NCBI GenBank assembly: GCA_029582165.1
Contig: CM055872.1
Span: 50,735,195 to 50,799,194, forward strand
DNA from: Portulaca oleracea
Taxonomy: Eukaryota > Streptophyta > Magnoliopsida > Caryophyllales > Portulacaceae
Length of the DNA: 64,000 nucleotides
Direction of reading: 5' to 3'
Shown here: in pieces, positions 4,590-31,717 of the stretch
Layout of the letters: each line of letters begins with the position of its first letter
Numbering within the stretch: position 1 is the stretch's first letter
The notes under the pieces: model-generated
What the model saw: the letters and a program-made list of their open reading frames with translations, nothing else
Database searches by the model: none
What the model was told of the DNA's origin: nothing
Program-made: the position numbers and the translations under genes

Positions 4590-4644
<55 letters not shown>

Positions 4645-4774: not shown

Positions 4775-4807
<33 letters not shown>

Positions 4808-4950: not shown

Positions 4951-4980
4951 AACATTCATAAGTTCAAATGTTTATAAGGT

Positions 4981-10500: not shown

Positions 10501-11470
10501 ACCGTATGTTCCGAGATTCAGACACAAACTCCTTATAGAGGGCATCGAAATGCTTCCACGCTTCACTATCGCACGGATGAACCATAGTTCCATCTTCACG
10601 TGCATTCATTGAGTGCCACCTCATGTGCTCTGCAGATGTCTTAATTGCATACAATCTTTGCAGCCTCGGCCCGATTGGGAAGTAAATCAATTGCTTGTGT
10701 GCAATGCGTTTCCCACGCAACGTCGTTTTAGCATACCTATCAGCTCCGCAGTGGTTACACTTATCTAAGTCAGCTTTCTCCTTCCAAAACAACACGCACC
10801 CATTAGGACACGCGTCGATTCTCTCATGTGGAAGTTCTAACACACCAAGCAATTTCTTCGCTTGATAGTAGGTGTCTGTCATCTCATTGTCAGGGGGACA
10901 TACATCTTTCATTAAGGATAACAGACTGTCCACGACTTTATTTGGGAGAGTGTACTCAAATTTTATGTTAATCATCCGTGAGACAACCAAGAACAAAGAC
11001 ACATCGCAACCTTCATACAAAGGCTTTTTGGAGGCATCGAGCATTTCTAAGAACTTCTTAGTCCCTTCCTCTGGCTCATCTTCCCTCGTATTATCAACGC
11101 AGCTGAAAGGCATATGGCCCATGGCATCGGTTGTCATTTCTTGCATACTATTGACACCTCTATTACTAGAAGACCCATCAACGACAGTGTTTGAAGTTTG
11201 ACCACTACCCCCGAGAGTCGCATAACTCTCCCCGTGACTTATCCAAACATAATAATTTGGACGAAAGCCGTGTTTGTACAAGTATAGCTTCACAGTATCA
11301 TCGTCAAGGTACTTCAAGTTTTTACAGTTGCTACAAGGACACCTAAGTTTCCCCGAACTACTCCATTGTTTTGCAACAGGTATAAATTCTTCATTCACCC
11401 TACATACGAATTCCACACTAAGATATTCACCATCATGTCTTTCATACATCCATTTTCTACTACTCTCCAT
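7511..11470 (-). pseudogene. TNP2-type CACTA transposase, broken
   Basis: The first exon (11470-10445) starts with the transposase-associated domain (MYERHDGEYLSVEFV; CPCSNCKNL) and enters the Tnp2 domain (CPNGCVLFWKE, CNHCGADRY, MRWH). The frame runs into PYNLPPWLCMKKQY, GPKSPKGNLDVYLQPLIDEL and GKMSCPYCM, and is interrupted by TGA (10445-10447) and TAG (10136-10138). After a frameshift near 10010 come MHVEKNVFDQ and the DUF4218 region (LHGLKSHGCHVFMEKLLP; GPVLYRW; KARVESSICNAYLTEE). The DUF4216 exon (8139-7579; GVYVKVMHDIDFYG, FNFVHGLNKHE, QVFHTRYP) ends in an acidic tail that reaches 7511 after one more frameshift. A hAT MITE (8581-8882) splits one exon. The mostly recoverable frame suggests fairly recent loss. 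The enzyme would have cut and joined the CACTA ends. Confidence 0.88.
8581..8882. mobile_element. hAT-type MITE inside the TNP2 gene, 302 bp
   Basis: The ends are TAGGGGTGCGCAT and ATGAACACCCCTA (inverted), and the 8-bp target duplication CTTTTGAC lies at 8573-8580 and 8883-8890; both are hAT signatures. The interior is built from repeats of ATTCGGTT and its complement AACCGAAT. Joining across the duplication restores the TNP2 frame between PSEGQK and RFLNQQEY, so insertion came after the transposase was coding. Confidence 0.92.
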
Positions 11471-11618
11471 TATGTACTTAGCTGAATATAATATATTATA
11501 TATATATCATTGTAAGGGATTAACTCACAATCAATTAAAGCAAATACATACTTTCCATGAATATAATGTATGTTATTATTTAATGTTAACAACTATTTTA
11601 AGTTTCATTGAAATACAT

Positions 11619-11713
11619 ACTCACCTTTTTTGGAACCAGACAAATAAAGGAGAGTCGATACGACCCATGAAAGTCATTTTCAGCCATAGATTATCAGGTC
11701 ACAAACACAATCT
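11619..11713 (-). repeat. 95-bp segment, left copy (probable TNP2 leader exon)
   Basis: This 95-bp segment recurs at 26959-27053 on the other side of the inner CACTA with a few substitutions. On the minus strand it contains ATGGCTGAAAATGACTTTC and ends in a good 5' splice site (AAAAAAG|GTGAGT), as expected of a first, mostly untranslated exon of the transposase gene whose main coding part starts at 11470. It ends exactly where the inner element's ACTACAAGG terminus starts. Confidence 0.6.
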
Positions 11714-12003
11714 ACTACAAGGAATCATGCCAGTAGCTACATTTATTTCGTAATAATCCTACATGTAGAGGTGTAGCTATAAACTCATGGCTACATCCCT
11801 AGGAGGTGTAGGTATTTTGCGTGTGACTAAATTTAGCTACATGTGAGACCATGTAGGTAATTTTGATACATTTGGCAGGTCTAGCTATTTAATATAATGG
11901 TTGTAGCCTTTTCATAATGGAAATTATTCAAAATAAAAAATTGTTACATGTACTAATTGTAGCTACTAATTTAGTTTTATTTTTTAAACACATGCCTACC
12001 ATT

Positions 12004-12004
12004 C

Positions 12005-12068
<64 letters not shown>

Positions 12069-12093
12069 TCATTATTATTGTTGTTGTTGTTGT

Positions 12094-12142
<49 letters not shown>
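12004..12142. repeat. Microsatellite tail: (ATT)n, (TTG)n, (TA)n
   Basis: (ATT)n from about 12004 to 12068, a short TTG run (12077-12094), then (TA)n to 12142. It sits at the 3' end of the minus-strand LINE at 12143-15085 and is probably the expanded remnant of its A-rich tail. Confidence 0.85.
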
Positions 12143-12146
<4 letters not shown>

Positions 12147-15085
12147 CAGAATTGCAAACTCTTCATTACCAAAGACTTTAAACAAAGTCCATGAGAAAAC
12201 AACAAGCCAAAGGAGGACAAGAGAAAAGACCTATTGAAGTAAAAATTCTATACAGGGGTTGTATTTGGGACTCCTTTTTGCCAAAAATAAAAATCTATGA
12301 ATGATTGTGTACTGTATCTTCTTAGTGGCTTCTCCAACAGTCATCTCCTTATGGTTATCTGGGAATCTTTTGTAATTCCTTGTTTCCCATACAATAGCAA
12401 TGGTCGATGTAGCCAAGGCAGCCATGATGGATTTCAGAAACCACTTTCTCTTCGAATTTTTCCAGTTGGCGAGCCACTGAAACAGAGAGTTAAACCTGAA
12501 GCTCAGCTTCCATTTACTGCAGAAATGTTGTAACGCCTGATTAATGAAGGGGCAAGCTGTGAATAAATGATCTATCGTTTCTTCAAGATGGTTGCATAAG
12601 CAACAAGACACCACAATATTGTTGCCATGCCAAAAACAGGTGACGAGGAGGAGAGCCAACATTCCACACAATATGATATAGAGGCCATTTCTCACAATTT
12701 GAAAATAAGGAGTAATGCATCTTGAAAAAGAAGAGGGGATAAAGGATCACCTTGTCTTAAACCACGTCCTCCTTTAAAATGGCCATGATGTTGACCATTA
12801 AGATTAATGGTGTATGAAGGAGAGGATATGCACATCATAATCCATTGAATGAATCTAGGAGGAAAGAGCAACGCCTTCAGAGCCTCTTCAATGCATTCCC
12901 AATAAATTGAGTCATAAGCCTTCCTCAAATCAATCTTCATGATACATCTTGGGGAAAGCTTAGCTCTATTGTATCCTTGAGCAACTTCTTGACATAAAAG
13001 AATATTCTGCACAATATCTCTCCCCTGCACAAAAGCTCCTTGACTGGGATTGATAATATTAGGTAAAACAGTTTTTAAGCGCTTGCATAACACCTTTGAA
13101 AGGCATTTATAAGCCACATTATAACAAGAAATAGGTCGGAAGTCAACAGGGCTCTCAACATTGATTTTCTTGGGAATCAGAGTAATAACAGTTTCATTGA
13201 TGCTTGTCAAAATAGAACCAGTGTCCAAACACTCCATAATAGCTTCACATAAAAAATCCCCAATAGCATCCCAATTATAGTGATAGAAAGAACTACTGAA
13301 GCCATCCGGACAAGGGGCCTTGATGTGAGAAATAGAGAACATACTATCACGAATTTCAGCTTTAGTAACAGGAACAAGCAGTCTCAACTGTTGTTCAATA
13401 TTCAGCAGATAACCAGAAACCATAACATCATGATTGACATGGATTCTTTCATAGGACTGAACTCCCAACAACTTCTCAAAATAATTGACAACAATAGAAG
13501 CAACCTCCTCATAGCCCTTAACCACAATCCCCTCCTCATTGGATAAAGAATATACATAAGAATCCATCTCCTTCTTTTTCATTTTCCCAAAGAAGACATG
13601 AGAAGGACAATCTCCAAAATTCAACCAAGTCACTTTAGATTGTTGCAAAATGAGCAATTGAGCCGAATCCAAAATCTTCAAGTAGTACTTCCTTTTTCCC
13701 CTTTCCAAGTCTTTGAGAGCAACATTACTTTTATCAGCCATTAAATTCACCTGCACTTCCTCCAGTTCTGATCTACACTTCTCCACCTGCTGATGTAGAT
13801 CATAATAATGACCTTTATGTAATTGTTCAAGTGGACACCTCAAAGAATGAAGGAACTGAATAAACTGGAACATCTTGAAACCACTCCTAGCCTTAGATAA
13901 AGCAGTCATAATAATATCATGATAAAGAATGGAATTCTGCCACATCATACAATACTTAAATGTGTATTTATGCACAGGAGCTCCAGGGAAAGTAACCAAA
14001 ATTGGAGTGTGATCCGACAAGCCAAACGGAAGAAAGGTGGTGTGAACAAACCTACCTTGAAGGTGTCACTCTTCATTACAAAAATCCCTGTCAATTTTAG
14101 ACCATACATGAGAGTTGGTCCATGTGAAAAAATCTCCATTAAAATTCATCTCATGAAGATTATTTGACTGTATGCAATTCTGGAAATCCACCACCTCAAA
14201 AAATTCAACCTGAGTTCCACCAACTCTATCTTCCGCCCTCAAAACTGAATTAAAATCACCCAAAATTAACCAACCATCCTGAATAGTATTGGCTAAGCAA
14301 CCCAAATTTTCCCATAAACACTTCCTTTCATGTAGACTATTAGACCCATACACAAAGGTAACTTGAAACTTGAAGCTATCGGCCAGACTAGTAACACAAA
14401 TATGTATCCATTGTGAATGAATATCCAAAATCTCAACATTATAAACTCTAGGTTTCCAAGCAACCAGAATCCTACATTTACCATCAATATCAGCATTATG
14501 GGCAAAATGCAACCCATTCAACATATGAGAACTCAACTCCACCATTTTTTTTTCCTTTTTTGTTTTAACTTCAAGTAAACCCACAAGGCTTACATGATGT
14601 TTAAGCAAGAATTGACGAATATCAACTTGCTTATTTATTCTACCACAACCTCTAATATTGCAGCTCATAATGTCAACCATAACCATCTGAAATAGACCCT
14701 CCTGCCTTTTGGAATGCTTTTAGAACCTCTCCTGCTTGAATAGTGAGAGGTCTATTTGAGGTTGGAGGTAGGCCTTTAGAGGGCACAGATGGAGTTGGAA
14801 TAGAACGTCTGACATTGCTGGGAATAGGCAATATAGGGTGAACAACTGTTGATGGAGAACCTAAATTCACCACACGAGTTTCACTCAAATTCTTATCTGC
14901 AACCAATTGGGAATCACCTTTGTTCTTTTTGCTTTTCAATTGACATTCACCTACAGCATGCCCAAAATTCTTGCAATACGAACATTTCACAGGTTTCCAA
15001 TCATAAATCACTTTCTGAGAAATAATCAAACCATTATCAGCAAAATGGATAATATCCATAAAATTACCATCAACGTTCATTACTA
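12143..15085 (-). pseudogene. L1-type LINE A: ORF1 end, endonuclease, partial RT, zf-RVT
   Basis: ORF1 end (15080-14673): a CCHC knuckle with CX2CX4HX4C spacing (CSYCKNFGHAVGEC) and a basic/proline-rich tail. ORF2 starts at 14686, overlapping ORF1 by 14 bp. The endonuclease runs from MSCNIRGCG through LVGLLEVKTK, LILGDFNSVL and FFTWTNSHVWSKIDR. One nonsense codon (14066-14068, TGA where the family has Trp) separates it from SDHTPILVTF and the RT (KAPCPDGFSSSFY, FRPISCYNVAYKCLSKVLC, QGAFVQGRDI, KIDLRKAYDSIYW, GLRQGDPLSPLLF). The RT then stops: the catalytic ADD region is deleted, and sequence jumps to the zf-RVT domain (CCLCNHLEETIDHLFTACPF, 12695-12231). It is inactive, 5' truncated, and abuts LINE B. 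Confidence 0.88.
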
Positions 15086-16885
15086 AGCAACCAATCTCTC
15101 CAAATTTCCAATCTCACACCTGAGAGATGAAAGTTGGAGAACACAGAAAGAGCAATATTGATGAAAAAGGGGCATTCAAAGAATATATGGTCATTTGACT
15201 ACCAATCCTTACCACATAAAGCACAACACTTAACCCGCTAAACACCAAATAATTGCATTCTATCTTGGGTTGTCAATCTTCTATTCATAAGCATCCAGAA
15301 AGTGAAGCCAAATTTAGGTATGCTCCATTTGTGCCAAATAAGAGAGTGCCAAGGAACAATCTCTTTATGAGATTTTAAAGAGTCATAACCTTTATGGATT
15401 CGGTACTTGTCATTCGCATCCTTCAAACCCTTGAGTAAAGGTTCAAGATCATCACGGATTTTCAATAATCTCTTCCAGTACCAACTCACATTTTGCTTGA
15501 CTTCACAATTCCAGATATCTTGCTTTTTGAGATAGATATGGTGAATCTACTTCACCCAAAGTGATTCTTTTTCCATCATAATTTGTCATACCAAGTTTCC
15601 CCAAAGCAGCTTCATTCCAAGAATGGGCATCTCTGATATTGAGACCACCCTCTTTCCTAGAAAGACAATAAGTCGACCAAGAAATAGGGGGAGCCTTGTT
15701 TGTTCTCCCACCCCAAAGAAAGATACGGCACATCTTACTAACCTCCTCAATGACACTTGATGGAAGAATAAAAATCTGAGCCCAATAAGTATGAAGCGAC
15801 ATGAGGATACTATTAATAAGTTGTACTCTTCCCGCATAAGAAAGTTTCTTCACTGCCCACCCCTCCAACCGACTAGCCACTTTTGCCAGCAAAGTAGCAC
15901 AATCATGTCGATTCAGACGAGTAGGTTTAACTGGAACGCCTAAATATTTGAAAGGTAAAGACCCACGGCTGAAACCAGTTCTCTCCAATATCAGATTCAC
16001 ATTCTGGTCATCAAACCCTGGAAAAGTTATATCAGATTTGTTCCTGTTTGGCCATAGACCAGAGCATTCAGAGAAGTGAGTAAGTGTAGATAATAGAATG
16101 TCAACACTAATAGGGTCACCATTACAAAAGAGAAGCAAATCATCGACAAAACAGAGATGAGTGAGAGAAAGAGGCTTACAAAATCGATGAAATTTGAAGT
16201 CAGTACTCCGAGAAGCCTCTTTTAAAGCCCTTCCCAAATAATCCATTACAAGCACAAACAAAATAGGAGAAATAGAATCTCCTTGCCGAAGACCACGTTC
16301 GCTGTGAAAATACCCATAAGTACCTCCATTAAAAGAAACCGAAAACGATGCTGTAGAAACACAAGATATAATCCAATCAACGAATATAACTGGGAATTTG
16401 AGAGCAAGCAATAAATTCTCCAGAAAAGTCCAATCCACCGTGTCATAGGCTTTTTGGATGTCAACTTTGATAAGACAACTAGGTTTCACACCCTTCCAAT
16501 TATAAAAGCGAACCAAGTCTTCAGCAATAAGAATATTGTGCATAATAGATCTACCAGAAACAAAAGCGGCTTGTTCTTCACTCACCAAGAAGGATAGAAC
16601 ATATCTCAACCGTTCACAAAGAATTTTTGTGATGACCTTGTAGATTACATTACAACATGAAATAGGCCTCAAATCAGTCACCCTTTCTGGATGAGTAACT
16701 TTTGGGATCATAGTGAGTAGAGTAGAATTAATCTCCTTCAATATCAAACCAGTTTCAAAGAAATAGATTCACAGCCTTGATTACATCATTCCCCACAATG
16801 TTCCAAGATTTCTTGAAAAAAGTAACATTGAAACCATACGGCCCGGGGCTGCGATCACCATCCATGGCAAAAATAACATAATGAA
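15086..16885 (-). pseudogene. L1-type LINE B: reverse transcriptase and zf-RVT, 5' truncated
   Basis: Similarity begins at about 16885 with the RT N-terminus (DGDRSPGPYGFNVTFFKKSW). A frameshift near 16755 leads into a 414-codon frame (16747-15503) with LRPISCCNVIYKVITKILC, AAFVSGRSIMHNILIAEDL, IKVDIQKAYDTVDWTF, RGLRQGDSISPILF and FVDDLLLF (the catalytic A/YADD box is FVDD). It continues to KYLGVP, GRVQLINSIL and FLWGG. A second frameshift near 15530 precedes the zf-RVT part (15489-15238, then CCALCGKDW). Its 3' end is lost where LINE A joins it at about 15085, so LINE A probably inserted into LINE B. It is inactive. Confidence 0.87.
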
Positions 16886-16892
16886 TTTCTTT

Positions 16893-16894
16893 AC

Positions 16895-16950
<56 letters not shown>
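16893..16950. repeat. (TA)n microsatellite
   Basis: Almost pure TA dinucleotides, mirrored by another TA run at 17461-17495 on the other side of the MITE. The MITE appears to have inserted into a single TA tract. Confidence 0.9.
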
Positions 16951-16953
<3 letters not shown>

Positions 16954-17457
16954 ATAATTGGATTCTAATAATCCCTACTTTCACCAATTGGACAATGGTG
17001 GGCCAATCTTTCATTTGTATTACGGTGGTCAAAAAAATTGGATTGTAGTGGGATATTTTCAAGGGAATCATAGATTTTGTGTTGCATTTGATTCAAAACT
17101 TAGTATAACACTTCTGATGATTTTTAATAAATTTCTGAGATTTCTCCCAAATATTTTTCATTTTTTACTATTTTTACGATTTTTTCACTTTTATTATTTT
17201 TAAAAATCATAATAATTATTCAGTCTCAAAAATAATTTAAAAATGTTTTAAACTACAATTTATTAACTTTCTAGTGAAGCGAAAAAACAATAACAATATA
17301 GTATAGGAATGAAATAAATAAGAAGAATGTGGAGGTGGATTTGGATTTGGTACCACTACAATCCAATTTTTTTTTTTGGACCACCAGAATATAAAGTGAA
17401 AGTACGGTCCACCATTGTCCAATTGGTGAAAGTAGGGATTATTAGAATCCAATTATC

Positions 17458-17459
<2 letters not shown>
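16951..17459. mobile_element. MULE-like MITE, ~509 bp, in a TA tract
   Basis: The left arm GGATAATTGGATTCTAATAA TCC and the right arm GGATTATTAGAATCCAATTA TCC are inverted copies. Pairing continues through CCCTACTTTCACCAATTGG and GACAATGGTGG for over 100 bp. A target duplication cannot be seen because both flanks are TA repeats. The same family recurs at 56387-56919. Confidence 0.8.
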
Positions 17460-17495
<36 letters not shown>

Positions 17496-17498
<3 letters not shown>

Positions 17499-19060
17499 TA
17501 TATATATGAAAAAGATTATATAGAAACACCTTCATTGTGATTAAGCTAATAATTTTTTTTTATTATTTTCAAGATATTGATAAAAGAAATAATACATCAT
17601 TAAATTACATATAGTTCACAAAATATTTAAAAAAACTTGTTTGCTCATTAGGCTAAGTTGAACACTCTGACTAATACTAATAACGCAATGCATAATTATA
17701 CATACTCTAGTCATACTTAAAATGTATTCTACAAAATATACGATATTGTTCATTCTTTTCCTTGAGCTCAACACATAGTGTGTCATCTCTTAGTTTGCTT
17801 GATCATTGTGTCCACTTGGAGAGGCTATATTTTGATTGGCGTCGCCTGATTGACCAAAGCTTGCAAATTTCCTTTGTAACAGCTATGAACTCTGAAATAA
17901 AAGGAACAAGTTACTACCATCATCAACCAACTACCGCATAAAATGCTTACAGATTCTCACCATTCATTTGCAGTTATGACCGTAGAAAAATTGATTGTGC
18001 AAGGCAAAGTCTAGTCTAAATGAAACTAAACAGGGAGGACCTGACTGATTTTGAAGTTATGAAGGCTCTAATTGTTACCTAGGTCATCTAGCATTAATTC
18101 AACAATTAAAGGTAGACAGAAGCCTTCACAGAGATAGTCAAACTTATCAAACTAACATTCATACATATTTCTTATCTAAACTACTTTAGCCTAGAAGTCA
18201 GCCTAGTCAAACCAAGTGCATTAGAACTCCCATCAACTTTATCAAGCCATCAACATAAACCAAGTTATGAAGACTCTGATTATTCTCCAGTACCAGAGAA
18301 ACGCTTCCTCCAAATCTGAACTAACACAAATACATGAACATTTGGCTAAACAAAGCATAAACGAGCACCGCAAAATTGTAAATCAATCTAAAAAAGAGGA
18401 AAGAAACCCTAACCCCAACTCAGAGGCCATACTCACCAAAAATAGCAACAAAATTGGGAAGGAAGACAACCATATGGTGGATATCTACGACAATTGCAAT
18501 TTCGGCAACGATTTTCAGGTTGGTAGTGATTCCATCTATTGAGAAGACTAAGAGCCAGATCTGAAGATGAGGGGAGATGGACAATCGCAGAGGGTAGATT
18601 GAAGGAGGATGATTTTGGTGGCATGATGGCGGCGTATGAGGAGTTTAAGAACGGTAGGGATAGGTGGGAGAGTGAGGGAGGGAATAGGTCAAAAGTGAGG
18701 AAGGGGGGAATATAGAGTGGGTGGTGGCTGACTGGTTATTAACATAAAACTAGGGTTCAATTGCTAATTTGGAGGGAAAATTTTGGACAAAATATAGCCA
18801 AAATTTCTGTTAGACACTTGAAGAGGGAAAATTTTGGAAATTTTAAGTTGAAAATTTGAAATATGTTTTAATAATTTGAGAGGTCAAATTTGGAAGTGAA
18901 ATAAAAGTGTATCAAATAAATAAGAGTAATAACTTAATAATTTTAATAAAAACTATTTAATATTTTTTCATTTTTATTTAAAGTAATAAAAATAAAGCAT
19001 ATATAAATTTTATTTATGCATAAAAATGATTTGGTCACTCTTGTCTTATGCTTAACTTAA
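17496..19060. other. Non-coding or captured sequence in the nested CACTA
   Basis: No gene family recognised. On the minus strand a possible terminal exon ends at 17891, following a good acceptor (TTTTATTTCAG). A GC-richer block at 18520-18720 has 5'-UTR-like composition, with a minus-strand ATG near 18624. These may be the ends of a captured host-gene fragment. The rest is AT-rich. Confidence 0.3.
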
Positions 19061-20090
19061 TGGAGAATTGCATTAGGGAGGATGTGATTTAAAAGTTGTA
19101 TTCAGTGAGTTGGACTTGAGTCGGCAAAATTTTGTCCCACCCAAATTACTGGAATTGTCTGACCCAAAAAATGTCAAGTCTGGACATAAATTTTTCGTCC
19201 GAATTCTGATATTGACCGAATTGACCGAATATTTGGACATAAAATTTCTCTTTTTTCTATTGTCCGAACTCGATTTTAGCTTCGTCAAAATTGTCTGAAT
19301 CTGACTTTAGCTTTGTTCAAATTGTCCGACCTGGTTCGACCCGAAATAAAACTGGGTCCGGACATAAATTTTCCGTCCAAATTTTGACATTGTCCGAATT
19401 TGTCCCGACCTGAATCCGAATTTTTTCCAGCGCTATCGATGTGCAAGCGTTGGCCTTCTAGTGTATATTGGGTGTTTAGGTTGGAGTGCAAATTCAGACA
19501 ACTAACTTTCATGCTGCTTGATCATTTTTTAACATACATCCACACGATCTAAAAGCAACCTAACTTGATTTGTAGCTAAACCTGACTCTAGGTTTATTTG
19601 AACAACGCCTAAACTCAACTTTCACATGATACAAGTCTGACTTGTAACAAACAAAACTCTAATTAATGTGATCCTTAATTACTTGACTAGTGTCGATTCA
19701 TACATGTGATTCGATCACTTTAATTTCGACAAAGTTACATATATACATTTATCCAATTTTTAATTTTAGCATAACTTATACGCATAAAAGTGGACTCGTG
19801 TCATCAACGTCACTAAAAAATAAAGGATTCAATTAATTGACATAACCAATGAATGATAGGTAGACATTATAGGACTGTATGTCCGAATATGTCTGAAGTT
19901 GAATTTGGCACAAATTTTCGACAACCCCATTTTCATAATTCATACCCAAACCTAACCCAACTTTAAATCTGAACATGATCGAATAGTCCAAATTTGAAAT
20001 TTGGAAAAAAAAATTGATGAGTCCGGTCTAAATAAATCGGATCGGTCAAATTCGAGTTGCACAGACATTTCCCAATGCTAATTAAACCTG
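19061..20090. other. Repetitive block with many GTCCGAA/GTCCGGA motifs
   Basis: 19100-19440 repeats short words such as TTGTCCGA, GGACATAAATTTT, CGTCCGAAT and CCGACCTG in loosely spaced direct copies; 19860-20060 has weaker echoes. No ends or target duplication could be defined. It looks like an old degenerate MITE or satellite-like sequence. Confidence 0.4.
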
Positions 20091-22949
20091 ATATTTCTTT
20101 CCCATCCATCAATATTCTTTAATATTAAATATACTATGATGCCTGTAAAATTGATTGGGAAGGTAAGGTATGATAAAATTATTTTTGGATAAAGTTTGGT
20201 AAATTTAGATAAATTTGGGTAAATGTAGGTAAGTTTTATGAATTGTGAGAATTGTATATTTGGGGAGGTTTGAGGAAATTTGGGTAGATTTAGGTAACTA
20301 ATAGTTACCTACAACTTATCAATGAAGTTTACAGATTACCTGGAAGAGATTACTTGATTATCATATTCAGTCTTAATTTAACTTATGGGTAAAAATTTAG
20401 TTAGATTTACAATTAAAAAAACTCACACGTAATGGATTAAAAATTTAATTTTAATGGTCTATCTACTAGGTTCCAAAAAAAATAATTGAAAATAATAATA
20501 TGGAAAGTTGTACCAATTTATTTTTTATCCATTGCCCCCAAATTAGATAAATTCAACAAAAACTTTAAAATCTTCATTTTCCCACCCAAACCACACAACT
20601 TAATTAATGATTTTTTTTTCCAAACTAGTCTTGCCAGCGCGTGCACGCGCTGACCCGACAATGATAACTATTAATTATCAGTGCTAAGTAGTCTTAATTA
20701 TTGAAAAATGTTTGGTTATCTAACAAATTAGATGAACTTTTTCCATAGGTGAAATACTAAGATGGTATTAATTACATATCCAATGCAACCAACAGCCCAA
20801 AGGAAAAAAAATCCCAACAGGGGTGGTTCAATATAACCAACAACCCAAAGGAAAAAAAATCCCAATAGGGGTAATTTCAATTGCCTTGACCGAGATTGAG
20901 TTCTTGCTACTTGCTTCACAAACTACCTAAATATAGGCAGAAACACTGAACCAACTACCACTTAACAGAGTTTACTTGAAATCGACCCATCAAACACTCA
21001 TTTACAAGCATTTGAAGTCTTCTTATAAATCACACAAAGTCGATGTACGACACAAGCTTTTCGTATGGATCAATAACACCTTTTAAGGTTGCTGACATTT
21101 GATGGAAGAGACCTGCTAAGTGAATTTCGGTCAAACTGTCTATTAAGAAACAATGAAACCAACTAAATAAACTACAATTTTCAACATCGTCAAAAAATTT
21201 GTAAGATTTTGAAGGACCATAGGAGAGAAGAATACTTACATAACTTCCGATGTCTTCGCCGGATCAAGCCTGATAGCTTATTGTTATCCATCAACCTACC
21301 CAGCAAACCGTATTTTCATAAAACTTACTGGACAACATATAGTGCTTTTAGTAATTAGGCAATCATGACATTAAGTATCCTCTTCAATATGAATTAGAGT
21401 CATGTGACTGGACAGTGAACAATCAACAAAACATTAGGAAATAACTACGGGTACTACCACGACCCAATGAGATTTAACCCTATGTCATTTTGAGTCAGAA
21501 AAAAAAAATAAAAAGAAAGGAAATAACGCATTTGGGGGGGGGGGTTTAAAGGAGATAGTGAGATGGCATACAAGTGTTTGCTCTTTGATTGAGTTTAAGA
21601 GTGGCGGTTTATCTCTCAGACTCAACTCAAGAGGCCCTAAACCTAAACAGATACTTACATTAACAAAATAAAGCCTTCTTCTTTATAGGGTACTCAAGTG
21701 AAATCTAATATTTTAGGGGCAAGATGTTACATCAACAATCATCAGTTTCATACATGTAGAAATTTACCTCACAAAACAAACAGAAATAAGTTCCAGCCAA
21801 AAGATTCCAATCATAGTGCATTATCACTAAAATAGAGGCATGACAGAACACTTGCACTCAATGTTCAGATAACTTCACAATTAATAATTGCAGTCAACCA
21901 CCGGGGTTTAGAGATTATAGACCTTGATATACCCATAAGAAATTTGCCTAAATTTTGGCTAAACTTGGTGACCCGACTTGTCGCTGCGTCCTAATCCACC
22001 TTCTTTATCCTCCCTTGATAGATAATTTGCATTTTGGCAATGAGAGTGTCTTGTAATACCAATTTAGGGCGAGGTTATGTTTAGTAAGATCAAAAAACAA
22101 TGCAATATTTACCCTTGGACTACAAGAAAGCACCAAAGCAAATTATGTATGCCATCAAGATTTAATGTCAGGAAATTTACATGTTAATATTGGAACCATC
22201 TTACTCTAAAACAGTGTAAAATAAACGAGAATGAAAATCCAGGAGTCCATGTGAAAACAAAAGGTCCATTGCAACTCGGTGTACAAAAGCACAGTCAGAA
22301 AGTTAAAAAGCAAGATGTTTAAAAAGAATTTTGAGTGTTGAACCCAACACCACCTCCCACACTGATGCAATCTTCACCAAGAAAGCCTGGTTAGTTTATG
22401 TGAAAGTATAAAGTTGTCACAAACTAAGGTGAACAAAATAAGTAGACAGAAACAATGGACAAAAATGAGAGACAAACATAGTTTCACTCAGCTATCAAGG
22501 TTTGTGCTTGACTAATCTTGGAGAATTTGATACAAAAAACTGTTGGTTGACCAATTAATTAGATCCATGTTGGTTTATGACCAATAGTACAGGAATCAAA
22601 TATCACTTCCACAATATAAGTTAAGTAAGCCAACACATGAGAAACAACACCCCTTCCCCCCTCTTCTCCCCAAAATCATCAAAGATTTGGAAGTATGAAA
22701 GATCTCCTGATAGGATGAAGGGATGAAACATACTACAATATACATACCAAATATAATGCAGGACATGAGGACAAACCCCAATTATAAATATTATATTTTC
22801 AATTTTTCATTTTGCTCTTTTTTTTAAAGGGGGTGTGTAGGACAGTGAGGCAAAACCAATGATAGCTGGAAATTCATACCACAAACTGGAGCTAGTAAAC
22901 AAACTTATAACAAGATTGTAACGGCTGTAGAAATCGAAACTAAGCATAC
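20091..22949. other. AT-rich, intron-like sequence without a recognised gene
   Basis: Contains a 46-bp-scale direct duplication at about 20775-20870 (CCAAAGGAAAAAAAATCCCAA twice) and a G11 run at 21534-21544. Short splice-like signals occur on the minus strand, but no exon could be assigned. It probably belongs to the same captured gene material as the exon-like pieces at 22950-25855. Confidence 0.3.
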
Positions 22950-23144
22950 CCTCATTTGAATGCAGCTTGTTGAAGTTCAGCTTCAATGTGAGGCTATAAG
23001 TATCTTTGGCATGATCAAGAATTTGCACAATTGTTCCATGCACAACTTTTATAGCCTCTATGGCACCTGCAAGCAACCCTCCAACAAACATTGCTTCAGG
23101 AGGTGTTGTTGATATGATTATGGAAACAACAATATAGGTCAAAC
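22950..23144 (-). pseudogene. Exon-like fragment of an unrecognised host gene
   Basis: A 195-bp minus-strand block is bounded by an acceptor (ATTTTGCAG at 23145) and a donor (G|GTATGC at 22949) and is open throughout. It encodes a hydrophobic stretch (TYIVVSIIISTTPPEAMFVG) followed by AGAIEAIKVVHGTIVQILDH and a polar end. The splice signals and length divisible by three suggest a real exon copied from a host gene. I do not recognise the family. Confidence 0.45.
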
Positions 23145-25014
23145 CTGCAAAATAATAGCAAGCCACATGACACAAGCAGGCTCGAATTGAGCAATATATA
23201 CAGATTTCATAGAGTACACCTAGTAAGTCAATTAATAGCCAAGATTTGTTCATCGCAATTGTACAGTGTGTAATGTTAATTGTCAGAAAAGCAAAAAGCA
23301 CCAGACAAAGGCATTACATAAACATTGAATCTCACATTGTCAGGTAATCCAAATCAACTCTTTGACCAAGGCTATAAATAACTCATACATGAGCGGCAAG
23401 AACTTTTAAAAAAAAACAAGAATAGAATGGATACAACAATAAAGCAAAGAAGCAAATATGAAAAAACAAATCACACTAACCATGGTAAACAAGTCTCATA
23501 ATCAGTAAAGCCATTATGATAAACCACCAAAGGGTTAACACCTAGTCTGACAAGAGATTAAAACTTCAAGTGACTTGAGGTGGAGTATTCTGGGTGATAT
23601 CACTTTTGTTTAATTCAGGGCATCATAAACTTGAACCAATGCCAAATAAAGATTATTTTTATATGAAAGGTGACCAAGTGCCATTATGTAGGATCCAAAT
23701 AATCAAAATCAGAACCCACCAATAGCTCTGTAAAACCCAATGTACCATTTAAGTCACACCCAATGGTAACTTTAATCATGTTGACAAAACCAGTCAACCA
23801 ATAATTTTACAGATGGTCTAAACAGAGAATTCGGCAACAATCATGCTAAAGATTTATATTTAAGATACAAAAAGAGGACACTGATCAACCAATTCATAAA
23901 CAATGCGAGCAAATATGGGGTGGTTAATAGTTGCATCCACTGGACTAACAAGAAATAAAACCAAATAAATCGAGAGAGATTAAATTGAGATGATTTGGGC
24001 ATTTTCATAGAAGAAGTGAGGAAAAAATATAAAATAAAGAGAAAATACTAAACATAGAATACTTGGAATATTTAAGCAATATCCGCTACGAATCATGGTA
24101 CTACGTGTCACGTATAACAATAATGGGTCCAAAAAAAGGATTGCCAATGTAGGGAAATGAAAGGCGCAAGGATAACATTATTTTTTATGTCGGTAGTTTA
24201 ATTTAGATAGTTTTAAAAAAAATTATTATGTTTTCAACTTAATTAAGGTGTGTTTGGTGCAAAGGAAAATGACAACGAGGGTCACTAAAATTCTATAATA
24301 AGAGCATAGCAACCTTTGAATAAACAGTTTAAAGCTTACAATTATATTCCATGATTCAAAGAGCTTCATATTCGAAAGCTGTTGAGACACTTTTCATAGA
24401 TGTGTCGTGAAAGATCAAGCAAGGAAGATGTGTAGCTGCACTTATGTAACTGTTTTTGCTGTGATGTACTATAGTATATGTGTACACTACAATTCTATTA
24501 TTTTAAAAATGGACAACCTGATATTGGGAACAGGAAAAAAACATGCTGCAATATAAATAATTGGAAATTGGAGCTCAACAGATTGAAAAATTATGTAGTA
24601 GTTATATATCGAACCGTGTTCATACTTGATATACTGGTAGTAAATCATATGTTAATAGGGGTTGACTAAGTACTTGATGTTTGGACGGTCAACTTCCTCA
24701 AAAAAAAATTATTTCAAATATGCTCTGTAAAATATCAATTATTGTCAAAATCAAGTTCATCCAAAAAGCCATCTGCAATAGCATTCAACCATTGATGGTT
24801 TGATAGCAAACAAGATGACTTAAATCATACTACTATTCTAAACACGACGACAAAAAAACACACCAATATACAACCTAATCGAAATTAAATGGATTTTAAA
24901 CCTTTATGTGGCCACAAAATGCATCAAGGGGAAAGAATTTTGCATATAACTATTTAAATAAACAACAAAGCCAGAGATAAGAAACCATAAATGTGAGACA
25001 GAAGCATGAATTAC

Positions 25015-25103
25015 CTGCAATTATCGGTAGCTAGATACTCTTGAGTATCATATCCATAGTTACCCCTCACTTGGGTTGACACATGACTTTCGTCACCAGT
25101 GCG
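25015..25103 (-). pseudogene. Receptor-like kinase activation-loop exon fragment
   Basis: Bounded on the minus strand by an acceptor (TTTTTATCAG at 25104) and a donor (TGCAG|GTAATT at 25014). The 89-bp block reads GDESHVSTQVRGNYGYDTQEY. Plant receptor-like (cytoplasmic) kinases have a highly conserved activation segment of the form GD-x-THVSTRVMGTYGY-x-APEY. Here APE is replaced by TQE and other positions have drifted, so this is a decayed copy of one exon. The remaining kinase domain is absent. Confidence 0.6.
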
Positions 25104-25760
25104 CTGATAAAAAATGGAGAAAGTTGCAGTGTTTAGAATGTTGATGCCTGATCAAATGTATAACTTGAAATATCATGAGCCTCCTTCTCTGAAGTTTGTT
25201 CTCCAAATCTCATATGGAGACATTCACTGAATCTTCCTCAGGTTATTTATTACATTCAGCAAACTATGAGGAAATCTATTGCACAACAATTACAAGCACC
25301 AACATTGTAAACATTAAGCCATAAAACTACCAAAACATCATATATAACTAAAGGTACAATCTTGAATTCAAATAGCGTTTCATTTTCTAATACTTGTTAT
25401 GCCACTTACAATTTGGCATTGAATCATCGTTAGCTCCCTGTATCGTGAACATACATAGGCATTGAATCATCGATAGCTCCCTGTATCGTGAAGATACATA
25501 GGCATTGAATCATTGATAGCACCTCATATCCAGATCATATATGGGCAAGTACCATGGAAAATAAAGTTCAATTTTCGATCAATTCAAGTTTGAAAAACCT
25601 CAGAATGAATCAGTAATGGACCAAAAATACAGAATTTCCATGAAACATGAATCACAAGAGTGGAAACTCAAATCTTTAGCAAGCAAACTGAAGTTGTTCA
25701 AACAAATTGAATCAAATTAAAGGTAAGGCATTAACAGAGAAATAGGAACAAGGAAATTAC

Positions 25761-25855
25761 CTGAGAATAACTGAACAAATGAAGGGAGTAGCGTAAAGAT
25801 TATCCAGCTTGATAGCAGGCAAACATGCAACCATGTCCATGAAATTCTTGTCTAA
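25761..25855 (-). pseudogene. TFIIH subunit TFB2 (p52/GTF2H4) exon fragment
   Basis: The minus strand reads KNFMDMVACLPAIKLDNLYA then PFICSVILR, ending inside the Arg codon at a 5' splice site (AG|GTAATT at 25760). This closely resembles the N-terminus of plant TFB2, a core subunit of TFIIH (transcription initiation and nucleotide excision repair), whose N-terminal region reads NFMDMVASLPAMKLDKLY with F-I-C and LR following. Only this exon is present, and the next TFB2 exon (SLPPLAKKY) was not found downstream. It is a captured fragment, not a working gene. Confidence 0.65.
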
Positions 25856-26958
25856 TCAACGAGGATGGAATTAGAGCTAGCTATATCCCCACAACTTGAC
25901 CCTACTATTATTCAAAGTCTCCATCAAATTGCATGTTTGTTGGATTATAATATCATCATGTCATGCTCATGCCTAAACCAAACTCCAAGCAAATATTCTC
26001 ATATTAGATTAAAAAAAATTACTTCAAAAGAAGAATTTGAGATAAATTAAATTCTATGAGACATTAATGTAATGGAAGATTTCAACTTTGCAAAGAAAAC
26101 AAAAGGGGGTACCTGACAATTTTGAATATCCCGTTATATTTTTCAAAATTTGTTCAAGGGATGGAAAAATCAAAGAAACAGACACTGAAATAGTGCTCTT
26201 CCCTCGATTTCGTAAATGGCAACCGTCGTCACCGTCTTTGGACTATTTTTCGGAGCAACAAAGATGTGGAAAACAAATCACCAGGCTGAAAGATTCAGGG
26301 TTAAGAGGGGCAACAATTGAAACTGGAGATGTGGGGGGCAACTGAAACCGTAACAATCGATTACTATAAATGAATCAGAACCAACAAAACAAGAAGAAGA
26401 TATACAGGTGTAGAGAGGAATGCAATTGAAGAAGGAGAAGTGAGGGAAAGACAGGAGAGCGGAGAGCGAATTCCGTATTACTCCCATGCAGTGCATTGAC
26501 ATTCTGAAGATTTGAGACTCATTTCAATTTTCTGACACTTGTACTCAAACGTGTTAAAAAAGAAATGTATATGTGCATGTAATCTACACTGAGCTTGCAT
26601 CAACAACTTAAAAGAAGGAAAGACCCAATTTTGCAAGCAAGTTTGACAAAGTCCAAATACAAAAGCAAGGGGTAAATCTGTAAATCGAAATTGGGACAAT
26701 ATACTTCCTTATTCACTTTTAATAATGGTATACATTTAAGAATTCATCTACCGCACAAATGTAGCAAATCAAAATAAGACTACTTTTTGGAAATGGTTAC
26801 ACCTTTAAGGTGTATCAAACAATTAATATACCTTTTAAATGTAGCTAACCTTGACAAGTGAGGTTTTTGCTTCCACCTTTGAAGGAGGTGTAGCTAAATT
26901 CGTGTAGCTACTGGAACCAATCCTTGTAGTATTAAAAAGACTTTCATGAGTCGTACCG

Positions 26959-27053
26959 ACTCACCTTTTTGGGAACCAGACAAACAAAAGAGAGTCGATA
27001 CAACCCATGAAAGTCATTTTCAGTCATAGATTATCAGGTCACAAACACAATCT
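26959..27053 (-). repeat. 95-bp segment, right copy, with an adjoining 24-bp inverted copy
   Basis: A copy of 11619-11713 with a few substitutions and the same length. Just before it, 26939-26962 (GACTTTCATGAGTCGTACCG ACTC) is an inverted copy, 21 of 24 matches, of 26992-27015 within the segment. The two can form a stem with a ~29-nt loop. The left copy lacks this inverted partner. Confidence 0.75.
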
Positions 27054-27254
27054 CCTTGGACACTAACCAGATTCAAACTCAACCTCTTTTCATGACATCG
27101 ACAACTAAGATACTAAAACTATAAATAAATTAACATACTTACTACTCTAAACTACCATGACAAATAATCTATATTATTATGTAACAACTGGTTGTTGAGT
27201 ACTTAAGTTAGTAAATGGATGTGACATATTATTAATAATTAATGTCTTCATTTG

Positions 27255-27700
27255 AAGTTATGAGTAGTTAAGTTAGTAATTAGGTTGGATTAGCAAAAAA
27301 TTTACGCTACCGACTTCAGAGGTTAACTTAATTAAAGTCGTGTCTTTAAATGTAAATTCAGCGTTGTTGTGATCAACAAGTTGTCGAAATTATATATACA
27401 TGTCATCATGTGCTTGTGAGGTAAGAGTTGTCAATGACTGTGCATTTAACATCCCAATCACTTATAAAACGAACACCAAGAACTCAACCTTCGTTTTATA
27501 TGTGATTGAGATGCAAAATGCACAGTCATCGACAATTCTTGCCTCACAAGCACATGATGACATGTACATATAATTCCAACAACTTGTTGATCAAAGCATG
27601 GCTGAATTTACATTTAAATATACGACTTTAATTAAGTTAACCAACGAAGTTGGAAGTCGTGTAAATTTTTTCCTAACCAAACATAACTAACTCTCTTACT
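27255..27700. repeat. Long hairpin 1 of the array
   Basis: An inverted repeat with arms of roughly 200 bp centred near 27481. Paired segments include AGCAAAAAATTTACG with its complement near 27660, GATCAACAAGTTGTCG with its complement near 27570, and GTCATCATGTGCTTGTGAGG with CCTCACAAGCACATGATGAC. The loop is about 16 nt. Arms are imperfect but extensively matched. It carries no ORF of note. Confidence 0.88.
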
Positions 27701-27744
27701 AATAACAACCAAAATCATCCAAACTCAACATCTTTTTATTTGCT

Positions 27745-28250
27745 AATTTATGTCTTCATTTGGAGTTATGAGTAATTAAGTTAGCAATTAGGTTGGATTA
27801 GCAACAAGTTTACGCTACCAATTTCGTTGGATAACTTAATTAAAGGCTAGTCTCTAAATGCCAATTCAGCCTTGTTGTGATCAACAAGTTGTCGGAGTTA
27901 TACGTACGGGTGATCAACCGATTGTGACGTAGCAAATGTTGATCGTTCTGCATTGAGCATCCCAACCACCCATAAAATGAACACCCAAGAAATCAAGATT
28001 GAGTTCTTTGGTGTTCATTTTAAAAGTGGTTGGGATGCTAAATACACAACGATCGACATTTGGTATGTCACAAGCGGTTGATCACCCATACATATAACTC
28101 CGACAACTTGTTAATCACAACAAGGTTGAATTGGCATTTAGAGACCTGCCTTTAATTAAGTTATCCAACAAAGTTGGCAGTCGCGTAAATTCATTCCTAA
28201 TCAAACATAATAACTAACTCACATACTAATAACTACCAAAATCATCCAAA
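27745..28250. repeat. Long hairpin 2 of the array
   Basis: Centred near 27998. It shares with hairpin 1 the outer framework (TTAGCAATTAGGTTGGATTAGCAACA, GTGATCAACAAGTTGTCGG; flank CCAAAATCATCCAAACTC). The inner stem is different (GGGTGATCAACCGATTGTGA and, on the other arm, TCACAAGCGGTTGATCACCC). The loop region AAGAAATCAAGATTGAG is close to that of hairpin 3. Confidence 0.88.
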
Positions 28251-28369
28251 CTCGACACTTTTTTATGACATCTACAACTAAGCTACTTAAATGGTTGTTG
28301 AGTACTTACGTAGCAACTTGTTGTTGATTACGTAAATGGACATGACATAATTATTTACAATTTATGTCT

Positions 28370-30445
28370 TCATTTGGAGTTATGAGTAACTAAGTTAGCA
28401 ATTAGGTTGGGTTAGCAACAGATTTACGCTACCAAATTTATAGGCTTACTTAATTAAATGGACGTCTTCAAGCAACAGATTCATACCTGTTATGGGGAAC
28501 AATCTGTCAAAGTTTTACAAATAGGTCATCATGGGCTTGCGACGTATGAACGCTGGTCCTGATGCATTTAGTTTCGCAAAATTTTTTGAGATAAACTCGC
28601 AAGAAATCAAGATTTGATTTCCTGGGTGTTTATCCCATAACGTCTTCCTAAACTGAATGCGTCACGACCAGCATTCATACGTCGCAAACACATGATGACC
28701 TATTTATAAAGGGAAATTGGATTCTAATAATACGAACTTTTGGCCATATAAGACTTAATAATACGAACTTTCGATTTGGTTCTGAATAATATGAACATTG
28801 ACCCCCTGTTGCCCCCAATAACACGCCACCGAGTTAAGATTAACTTAACTCGGGGCAATCCTAGCTGGCAGCCGGAGGGGTTTAGCCTTTGTATTTTGAC
28901 CAAGCCATGTCATATGTTGACTTAAAAAAAAATGCCAGCTCACCCACCACTCCTCCTCCTCTTCTTCTTCTCACGCCTCCCCCCCCCGGCACCCCCACCC
29001 TCACCTGCTTGCCTTCTCTCAGCCACCCCATCATTCTTTCCGACCACCTACTCACCAGAAACCTCATTTACCTCCTTTACCCCATCTCAAACCCAGTCTG
29101 AGTGGTAGCTATTGTTTATACTCCCGCCTCTTACCATTCCCCCTTCCATTTTCTCTCTCTACAACCACGCCGAGAACATGAATCACTCCACCGGAAACTC
29201 GCCGGAAAAAATGTCGGAGATCAGCAGCGGTCTTCTTCCATTTTCGTTTTATATGTTGGTAAAGGGTTATGATTTGTAGTTTTTGAATGTGAATAATTTT
29301 GTTCTACGAAATTTGTGTTTCTTCCGCAAAAATGTGAATAATTTCATCATACTGGATTTGTGTTTGGGAAAGAAGATTCGGAATCATTGGAAGTTCTGTT
29401 GTTTTGTGGGTGGTTTACTGAACCAATTTGGAAAATCACCCTAAAGCTGGTGAATTTTAGGAGATTTTTCATGTGTTTGGTTTGCTTATTATGCCAAAGC
29501 TACAAACTTTAAACAACAACTGATTATTAGATGGGATTTGTAGTTTTGGAATGTGTACTAATTTTATTATATGGGATTTTTGTTTCTTCCCCATGAATTT
29601 GAGTAATTTCATCATACTGGATTTGTCGAACAAAAGATTTGCAAAAGCACCCTAAAACTGATGAACTTTGGGAGATTCCTCAGTTGTTCGGTTTGTTCAT
29701 TGCTTTACATGCCATATCACAAACTCTAAACAATAGCTGAACTGTACATTTGGAAGAGATGCTTGTGATATATAGTTATCATTGTTATTATAAACAATAC
29801 CATCAATCCCAAAAACTTAGCTGTTAACTCCAGCAAGAATTATTTGTTGACAGACAAAGTTCTTTTCAGGAGCTTTGGATTGAATGTAGAGAGAGAAGGA
29901 AGAAGACCGCCGCTGATTTCCGACATTTTTTCCGGTGAGTAGGTGGCCGGAAAGAATGGTGGGGTGGCTGAGAGAAGGTAAGCAGGTGGGGGTGGGGGTG
30001 GGGGTGGGGGGGAGGCGTGAGAAGAAGAAGAAGAAGAAGAAGAGGAGGAGTGGTGGGTGAGCTGACATTTTTTTTAAGTCAACATATGACATGGCTTGGT
30101 CAAAATACAAAGGCTAAACCCCTCCGGCTGCCAGCTAGGATCGCCACCGAGTTAAGTTAATCTTAACTCGGTGGCGTGTTATTGAGGGCAACAGGGGGTC
30201 AATGTTCATATTATTCATAACCAAATCGAAAGTTCGTATTATTAAGTCTTATATGGCCAAAAGTTCGTATTATTAGAATCCAATTTCCCATTTATAAAAC
30301 TATCACAGATTGTTCCCCATAACAAGTATGAATCTGCTGTTTCAAGACGTCCCTTTAATTAAGTTAGCATACGAAGTTAACAGTCGCGTAACATTGTTCC
30401 TAACCAAACATAATTGCTAACTCACTTACTAATAACAACCAAAAT
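28370..30445. repeat. Long hairpin 3 of the array, right arm split by a MULE
   Basis: Centred near 28605. Left arm 28370-28595; right arm 28615-28710 plus 30299-30445, separated by the 1,579-bp MULE at 28711-30289. The framework matches the other hairpins (GGTTAGCAACAGATTTACGC; final flank CCAAAATCATCCAAATT). The inner stem is again unique (GGGCTTGCGACGTATGAACG pairing with CATTCATACGTCGCAAACAC). Confidence 0.85.
28711..30289. mobile_element. MULE with ~350-bp terminal inverted repeats
   Basis: The ends GGGAAATTGGATTCTAATAA and its inverse are flanked by a perfect 9-bp duplication, ATTTATAAA (28702-28710 and 30290-30298). The inverted repeats extend about 350 bp each (28711-29060 and 29940-30289) and include a C-rich (CACCCCCACC) tract. 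A further matched piece, CGCCGGAAAAAATGTCGGAG, occurs around 29202 and inverted near 29930. There is no transposase. The interior (29100-29900) is AT-rich and unrecognised. A 70-codon + frame at 28889-29101 is a product of the TIR. Confidence 0.92.
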
Positions 30446-31384
30446 CATCCAAATTAACTCAACCATTCCTAAGCTAATATAAATGAAAACTTAACCTACT
30501 GCTCAACCCATAACATTACACGTAAGATATTAACGTTTTCCATGTCGTAGCTTCAAATGAATTTGAAGCGTGCGAAAACAACATTTCAAAGACTGAGGAT
30601 AATAATCCCCAATTTTTCAATATGTTGTTTAGCGATGAACTCCAATGAATTTCATGGAAAAAGGTACTTATCGGCAATGTTTTATTTGATTTCAAGTTGG
30701 GATGATATTCTCTATAATGTCGATGTTCGCCTACACTTTAATAAAACGTACTTTTTTTTAGGTTTTGTTCATCAAATAATCCTAGTAGCTTCCCTTGCAT
30801 AAGGTTTTTATCAACCATAAACCCTAAATTACTCAAATAAATTACTCAAATTCAACAACATATATGAATTTTATAATTAAAAATCAACAAATTCAACAAC
30901 ATATACTCTTACTTTAATAACAACAATATTCTAACTTTAATTTCAAGCCCTAACAACCTAATACTATAATAAACTCTTAACATTCATAATTCACCCTAAA
31001 AATTTACATTCAAAACACTATTCTAAATTGAATTTCAAACCCTAAACTTGACTAACATTAAACACTACCCTAAATTTGAATTTCAAACAATAACTACACT
31101 ACAATTACTCATATAAATTACTCAAATACAACAACAGATATGAATTTTACAATTAAAAATCAATAATTTCACTACAAAAATAAATTAGGGGAGTCACATT
31201 GGTGGTTGCCGGAGATGTTGGCTTCCGTGGTTCCCGGAGATGTGGGCACGGTGGTCGCCGGTTTCCGTAGTGTCGGACGGCGTCGATGGTGGTGGTCGGA
31301 GTGAAGGTGGTTGGGCCGGTGGTTGGGGTCGGCGAGCGAGATAGAGAGAGAGCGAGGAGGCAACCGGTATCGATTACATTCTGC
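30446..31384. other. Right internal region of the outer CACTA
   Basis: AT-rich, with no convincing gene. 31170-31370 is GC-richer and open on the minus strand in two overlapping frames, without family similarity. As the TNP2/TNPA genes read leftward, their promoter is expected here or in the adjacent subterminal repeats, but no clear TATA or start site could be chosen. Confidence 0.4.
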
Positions 31385-31700
31385 CCCGTTGTGTCATTAA
31401 AAAGGGCCAGCGATCGATAGCTAGCGACCGATAGCGTATCGATCGCTGGCTCAGCGACCGATACATTGTCAACGGAAATAAATATGACCGTTGTTGTTTT
31501 TAATGAGCTCAGCGACCGATACTCTGTGACAGATACGGTATCGGTCGCTGGCTCGGCGACTGATAACTCGAATGTTGCGACCGATACCATATCGGTCGCT
31601 AAACAGTGACCAATACGCTATCGGTCACTGCCTATCGGTCGCCCGTGTCGATAGGAGCGACCGATACATATCGGTCACCTAAGTCGGTCGCCGCAAGCGT
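31385..31700. repeat. CACTA right subterminal repeats
   Basis: More than a dozen copies of AGCGACCGATA or TATCGGTCGCT in both orientations, several as palindromes (ACCGATAC…GTATCGGT), mirroring the left end. The array stops just before the terminal GCGTTTCATGTTGTAGTG. Confidence 0.87.
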
Positions 31701-31717
31701 TTCATGTTGTAGTGATA

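Follow-up and report, generated by a model that had tools for sequence, protein, structure and literature searches.

Tandem long hairpins matching one host gene in a clade of CACTA transposons of Portulaca oleracea

Results

The window, that is, the whole stretch of 64,000 nucleotides of Portulaca oleracea DNA analyzed here, contains an outer transposon with nested insertions that carries an array of long hairpins (Table 1). The termini of this element are bordered by a 3-bp target duplication, and its open reading frames (ORFs) contain the domains of a tnp2-type transposase (PF02992 and PF13963, with PF13952), as in CACTA (En/Spm) elements. Motifs of the GCGACCGATA type, seen by eye and uncounted, recur at the right end and also at the left end. 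The transposase ORFs lie to the left of the array on the minus strand, which confirms an earlier description of the array as located inside the outer CACTA and upstream of the transposase genes.

Table 1. Features of the outer element and of the hairpin array (positions in the window)
Feature	Position	Strand	Remarks
Outer CACTA carrying the array	4128..31714		TIR CACTACAACA...TGTTGTAGTG; TSD ATA at 4125-4127 and 31715-31717; nested insertions
ORF with DUF4216 (PF13952)	7579..8202	-	probably belongs to the transposase gene region of the element
First transposase ORF	10445..11506	-	encodes Transpos_assoc (PF13963) and the beginning of Transposase_21 (PF02992); points away from the array
H0 remnant	11625..11716		corresponds to H0 positions 543-634 of locus L023
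Second H0 remnant	26934..27065		right-arm piece 26965-27065 and small left-arm piece from 26934 (left piece by eye)
Hairpin unit H1	27236..27730		arms 27307-27473/27490-27656 and outer collar; arms from L042 codons ~355-429
Hairpin unit H2	27744..28260		arms 27815-27996/27999-28180 and collar; arms from L042 codons 364-430
Spacer between H2 and H3	28261..28358		87-99% identity in 20/20 sibling loci
Hairpin unit H3	28359..30453		split by insertion 28711-30289
MULE-like insertion within H3	28711..30289 (~1.6 kb)		long TIRs; 9-bp TSD ATTTATAAA, read by eye, at 28702-28710 and 30290-30298
Right subterminal region	31391..31714		GCGACCGATA-type motifs repeated in both orientations; by eye, uncounted

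An inverted-repeat search of the window showed that the arms of H1 and H2 were 87% and 88% complementary, with centers at 27481.5 and 27997.5, respectively. In H3, the inner arms (28514-28610/28614-28710, center 28612) were 82% complementary and the outer arms (28434-28525/30287-30378) 85%, the latter being separated by an insertion that we, like the preliminary description, take to be a MULE. The predicted RNA folds of units 27236-27743 (H1) and 27744-28260 (H2) had energies of -246.7 kcal/mol (z -26) and -291.7 kcal/mol (z -33), respectively, each reached by 0 of 100 shuffles. With the arms located and both folds beating all shuffles, the three tandem imperfect hairpins reported previously are real, and the outer framework and flanks that they were said to share were also borne out. 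The hairpins are as claimed, but the pairing is longer than the reported arms of about 200 bp, reaching 220–238 positions per arm in H1–H3-type units when the outer collar is included. This collar, about 56 bp long and CACTA-specific, encloses the gene-derived part of H1–H3. The array had no Rfam match in the 87 kb scanned (the window and loci L009, L023, and L031), in which the sole match was snoR71 at 51735-51841 of the window.

The 1.13-Gb genome was searched for the array; the search gave 1521 first-look candidates, and scoring 40 of these yielded at least 179 matches. The sibling set consisted of 20 loci of 10 kb from the top of that list, out of the 39 scored places outside the window. 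Further copies of the array were found in these sibling CACTA elements: H2 and H3 were present in 20/20 loci, partly as an effect of choosing loci from the top of the match list. H1 was present in nine siblings (shortened in two), reduced to a remnant in four, and absent from seven. In siblings, another hairpin, H0, separates the transposase from H1/H2 and has a length of 516–657 bp and 85–94% Watson–Crick pairing; it was near-complete in 11 loci, partial in three, and without a match in six. In the window, H0 was destroyed by a nested insertion and only two remnants are left; the described three-hairpin array thus does comprise three hairpins, but it is incomplete. One locus on contig C19 carries a run of H0 hairpins. 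L031, a locus of another type that was one of eight picked from 150 scored Transpos_assoc matches, has two H0-type hairpins and one H2-type hairpin. The cassette, carried by a single clade of CACTA elements, has two to four long hairpins in tandem and lies between the start of the transposase and the right end.

Its position bears on the idea that the palindromes are protein-binding or structural DNA used in transposition, like enlarged subterminal repeats. The soybean elements Tgmt* and TgmR* are similar in having non-coding DNA rich in inverted repeats near an element end (PMC2613891, PMC4219821), and Tgmt* is described as having 14 subterminal stem-loops, built on 17-bp motifs and confined to the terminal 159 and 732 bp (PMC2613891). 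The retention of H2 and H3 in L025, a deletion derivative with both ends, agrees with such a role. In contrast to the Tgmt* stem-loops, the palindromes here are about 500–660 bp long and largely host-gene sequence, and the cassette ends 1.2–1.8 kb inside the right end (measured in the window and in five loci with a right TIR, out of 14 searched). The arms consist of gene fragments whose number varies, and the CACTA element seems, by eye, to have subterminal motif arrays of its own. Moreover, the array had no match in the other seven, more distant CACTA loci within 3 kb upstream of the Transpos_assoc domain; an inverted-repeat test there gave nothing in five of them and only short repeats (≤82 bp) in two. 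We consider this DNA-level role highly improbable.

Both H0 arms contain an open frame, which we took to resemble plant NO VEIN-like proteins. The genome has two genes with a NOV_C domain (L040 and L041), and NO VEIN itself was rejected as the source, H0 having no protein-level match in either gene and DNA matches at chance level only. When a NO VEIN exon was used as the query, distant paralogues were obtained, among them L042 on contig C12, which has an uninterrupted frame of 1626 amino acids. The 5′ and 3′ arms of the L019 H0 were 87.7% (342 bp, E 7e-123) and 87.1% (317 bp) identical to L042, respectively. In tblastn at E 1e-3, the 1626-aa ORF matched 61/66 hairpin units and 0/66 reversed controls. 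The matches covered 11/11 H0, 10/10 H1, 21/21 H2, 16/21 H3, and 3/3 L031 units; the remaining five of the 21 H3 units had no match at this threshold.

The hairpins matched two separate places in the L042 protein. The H0 arms of L019, L012, and L023 (three units) were 85–88% identical to coding sequence (CDS) positions 4031–4374 (codons 1344–1458), and the H0-type hairpins of L031 were 78–84% identical to the same segment. Both arms of the H1–H3 consensus were 66–70% identical to CDS 1090–1291 (codons 364–430), with alignment scores of 107–132 on both strands against shuffle maxima of 39–49. Thus, both arms are homologous to one host gene, and a single strand is predicted to fold back stably (H1 and H2 compared with shuffles; 11 units folded without shuffles). 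In a genome search in which 11/11 first-look candidates were scored, no paralogue closer to L042 than 34% amino-acid identity was found; therefore, L042 or a lost close relative is the source. Judged by these alignments, all hairpin types found are inverted copies of parts of a single host gene, L042, an inverted-duplication origin like that proposed for young MIRNA genes.

The NO VEIN-like name of L042 is a weak assignment. L042 matched the NO VEIN exon over 52 aa only (48%, E 4e-4), and a second locus, L043, matched the same exon over 106 aa at 32%; L042 and L043 were 38% identical. Pfam found nothing on L042 and only a chance match below the cutoff on the H0 peptide, and searches with this peptide gave no scored match in public proteins and none in PDB. 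A search for HATPase_c_3 gave seven matches. The possibility that H0 is a translated ORF was rejected, since synonymous, replacement, and stop variants in 26 arms numbered 50, 99, and 6, against expectations of 42.0, 107.7, and 5.3, respectively.

H0 and H1–H3 diverge from L042 by about 13% and 32%, respectively (identities of about 87% vs 68%), whereas L042 and L043 show the same conservation in both source segments (42% each). Given this unequal divergence of hairpins from equally conserved segments, two captures are the simplest reading, which suggests that one gene was captured twice, at different times, by one transposon clade. Alternatively, H1–H3 may have changed faster or may come from a lost paralogue.

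The two groups also differed in short matches to L042. All 11 H0 units contained 21-mers with up to two mismatches to the gene (1963/6239 21-mers, 17 of them exact). For H1, H2, and H3, such 21-mers numbered 56/4667, 97/10424, and 36/10245 and occurred in 6/10, 16/21, and 5/21 units, respectively, and none of the 52 H1–H3 units had an exact 21-mer match. Reversed controls gave 1/6239 for H0 and 0, 0, and 0 for H1, H2, and H3; for comparison, reversed H1 units had three 21-mers of this kind when set against L040, the NO VEIN locus, with its introns. The best 21-mers of the window H1, H2, and H3 and of the L010 H2 all fell within CDS 1243–1271 of L042. The window lacks an intact H0, the hairpin type with the most target identity.

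Arm pairing was analyzed over 237 pairs in 13 aligned units (H1, H2, H3, and the Hc hairpin of L031) out of the 66. Changes on both sides were found in 76 of the 237 pairs, compared with 55.1 (sd 3.9) in shuffles, none of 500 reaching the observed value, and 12–18 in slid controls. Covariation cells numbered 234 vs 92.6 in shuffles; in one of the five covariation measures, further pair types, no increase was seen (148 vs 144.0, reached by 119/500 shuffles). Such two-sided changes that keep pairing are expected of structured RNA under selection, and recopying of the arms at the DNA level would give the same pattern; selection on RNA and replication recopying (PMC8794818) both predict them. Two-sided change involved 71 of 181 pairs of the inner helix, which is roughly the gene-derived part, and 5 of 56 pairs of the outer collar, several mismatches of which are common to all units.

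Wobble-compatible and incompatible transitions were compared because they might tell selection on RNA from recopying. The consensus mismatches of H1, H2, and H3 comprised 1, 2, and 4 G.U(+) against 5, 9, and 5 A.C(+), respectively. After by-eye removal of shared positions, wobble-compatible and incompatible mismatches numbered about 7 vs 14, and low-frequency variants were near balance (37:35, 51:54, and 39:52 for H1, H2, and H3). No significant excess of wobble-compatible mismatches was thus found on either strand in the H1–H3 consensus or the low-frequency variants. A G.U asymmetry that looked suggestive per copy was discarded because it disappeared among the low-frequency variants and was no longer significant after the shared positions had been removed by eye.

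Under self-regulation, the hairpins would lie in the 5′ leader or an intron of the transposase transcript and would restrict transposase or silence their own family; Mu killer of maize offers a comparison. The cassette lies immediately upstream of where the transposase begins, and in folds without shuffles the transposase-sense strand was predicted to fold better in 6/7 H1–H3 units. The four H0 units, however, were divided two each way, and arms that match a host gene, together with hairpins free of extra methylation-type decay (see below), also speak against self-regulation, which we regard as unlikely.

The covariation with no significant wobble bias and its concentration in the inner helix are also what passive capture would produce. 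Here, gene fragments would have become palindromes by replication template switching and their arms would have been recopied, so that the hairpins hitchhike without a function. CACTA elements are described as commonly carrying gene fragments (PMC8978399, PMC8195511), and template switching is described as able to make and keep hairpins (PMC8794818). The decay after insertion looks neutral, as this explanation would have it. On the other hand, two separate segments of one gene, at different divergence, each became hairpins, and H1–H3 are still self-complementary (89–93% Watson–Crick pairing in the consensus) despite differing from L042 by about one third. Passive capture is further opposed by the occurrence of the cassette in two subfamilies and by its partial retention in L025. 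We consider passive capture with template switching the main rival to an action on L042, possible but doubtful.

The cassette was compared between the two CACTA subfamilies, A and B, in three A–B pairs. The transposase differed by 24–38% (200-column windows) and the 2.4-kb cassette by 6–16%, the latter value being hardly above the difference within subfamilies. The border of similarity was sharp on the transposase side; on the right, two of the three pairs had it close to where H3 ends, and the remaining pair had it farther right. In L031, an A-type transposase exon (91–94%) is combined with the most divergent H2-type hairpin (84–86% to both A and B).

Decay after insertion was compared between hairpins and the adjoining transposase, a rough comparison, as the sets differ in copy number (3–8 vs 4–5). 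Singleton transversions per 1000 base-copies were 13.2 and 11.5 in hairpins vs 8.2 and 9.5 in the transposase; singleton C>T changes were 51.8 and 54.3 vs 61.3 and 68.3 at CG sites and were also lower in hairpins at CHG sites. CHH C>T changes per 1000 base-copies in A and B were 23.1 and 16.5 in hairpins and 23.0 and 24.5 in the transposase. The raised CHH C>T decay expected of an siRNA source under RdDM was thus not seen over the hairpins relative to the adjoining transposase. Purifying selection as the cause of about 90% cassette identity (transposase 62–76%) was rejected, because singletons accumulated in the hairpins about as fast as in the transposase CDS and because of the pattern in L031. 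Exchange is preferred over constraint for the same two reasons, the similar decay rates and the mismatch between transposase and hairpin in L031, and the data fit movement of the cassette between CACTA subfamilies by exchange. Hairpin cassettes may therefore be swapped as modules between subfamilies.

Discussion

The most likely mechanism, in our view, is that the cassette acts on the host gene L042, an evenly balanced judgment made from DNA sequence. The cassette would be transcribed into hairpin RNAs, these would be diced to small RNAs of 21–24 nt, and the small RNAs would lower L042 expression to the advantage of the element, as miR820 does with OsDRM2. The likeness is drawn because a transposon-borne hairpin copies a gene of its host. 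The preliminary description had raised an action on host genes; the identity of the hairpins as inverted pieces of L042 lends this strong sequence support, but footprints of RNA-level selection and extra methylation were not found. Observations counted against a silencing role are the neutral-like decay of the hairpins, the lack of extra CHH C>T, the lack of a significant wobble signal, and the small number of H1–H3 21-mers, as well as the one covariation measure that was not raised, the loss of H0 from the window, the weak NO VEIN-like assignment of L042, and the fact that CACTA elements often capture fragments of genes with no known function for them.

Transposons that apparently fight their host with RNA silencing are, to our knowledge, few, miR820/OsDRM2 being the model. 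A multi-copy cassette derived from one host gene would offer a concrete candidate gene for transposon control. A bolder version of the action on L042 is that the cassette is an exchangeable RNAi battery directed against the host: a single-copy NO VEIN-like gene would have been captured twice, made into tandem hairpins, and spread between subfamilies. If so, L042 would be an unrecognized restraint on these transposons, engaged in an arms race with them. This version is plausible but tentative, with the balance somewhat against it.

The miR820 precursor in rice CACTA elements is probably derived from an OsDRM2 fragment and targets OsDRM2 (PMC3459959); as far as that account goes, the shared features are a CACTA-borne fold-back RNA, a probable origin from a host gene fragment, and action on that gene. 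In contrast to the single miRNA precursor, the present cassette, known from its DNA, has several tandem long hairpins (about 220–320 pairs in well-kept units) from two parts of a gene; the putative target is NO VEIN-like rather than a DNA methyltransferase, and the cassette appears to move between subfamilies. Among the open-access papers listed, subscription journals being mostly outside the search, we found neither a report of an array of hairpins in a CACTA element nor one of hairpins made from a NO VEIN-like gene, the nearest case being miR820.

Host gene fragments are also carried by Tgm-Express1, Tpn1, and Jozin (PMC2613891, PMC8195511, PMC8978399), whereas those of the present cassette come from a single gene, as inverted duplicates repeated in tandem. 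Hairpins as such are not rare in CACTA elements, since they were predicted in 32.52% of those annotated in maize (PMC10760457). Unlike the present ones, the maize hairpins are on the scale of miRNA precursors and biased to terminal repeats, and the portion of the paper concerned with them describes no tandem host-gene hairpins. Long inverted repeats described in rice (PMC7649420) and for a soybean aquaporin (PMC3534067) are probable sources of small RNAs, but they are presented as single host loci, in contrast to a mobile, multi-copy cassette. The case of TART-A and nxf2 in Drosophila, in which a transposon is reported to target the host silencing machinery (PMC7785250), is comparable in that respect but concerns a telomeric element of an insect and the piRNA machinery.

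Host gene matched by the hairpins

The best-matching 21-mers of window hairpins H1, H2, and H3 and of H2 from a further genomic locus, L010, all fell on a single stretch of the coding sequence (1243–1271) of L042, the NO VEIN-like hairpin source gene, and this convergence marks the stretch as a candidate small-RNA target site. The NO VEIN and sacsin genes are each paired across different contigs (L040, L041, C13:31381366, and C21:29651798), with an exon identity of 98% for the NO VEIN pair, which suggests an ancient genome doubling. Unlike these genes, L042 was without such a partner in the genome search.

In the alignments of the window and sibling loci, C>T changes in CG and CHG contexts amounted to 50–68 per 1000 base-copies versus 7–10 for A>G, and methylation-type decay is strong in both the transposase and the hairpins.

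Copies of hairpin H0 and structure of the outer CACTA

Both ends of the large nested insertion that broke the window H0 resemble TACTACAAGGA, and a matching 3-bp duplication at its ends was not evident on inspection by eye. H0 pieces lie on either flank of this insertion, as if two H0 copies had formerly been present at the site. Locus L037 on contig C19 carried five tandem H0 copies within 4 kb, spaced roughly 850 bp apart from start to start and sharing 93–94% identity, the first copy being cut. Beyond this locus, more H0 frames were found on the same strand as far as 8562642 among the matches listed, and the run may therefore extend over some 20 kb in total.

At least four of the compared loci (L016, L025, L026, and L027) share the tandem repeats that the outer CACTA contains in its left part. 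The deletion derivative at L025 retained H2 and H3, with most of the transposase region gone.

Features located in the window and in the compared loci
Feature	Position	Strand	Details
Tandem repeats, left part of outer CACTA	window 5381–6367		unit ~51 bp
Large nested insertion	window 11717–26933		
LINE-like ORFs in the nested insertion	window 12231–16768	-	RVT_1, Exo_endo_phos; zf-RVT below cutoff
snoR71, plant C/D-box snoRNA	window 51735–51841	+	Rfam RF00097, 45.1 bits
CACTA deletion derivative	L025 1535–7582 (oriented locus)		6 kb; both CACTA ends; flanks AAT/CAT
Tandem H0 hairpin run	L037 1–4001 = G000:C19:8541200–8545200
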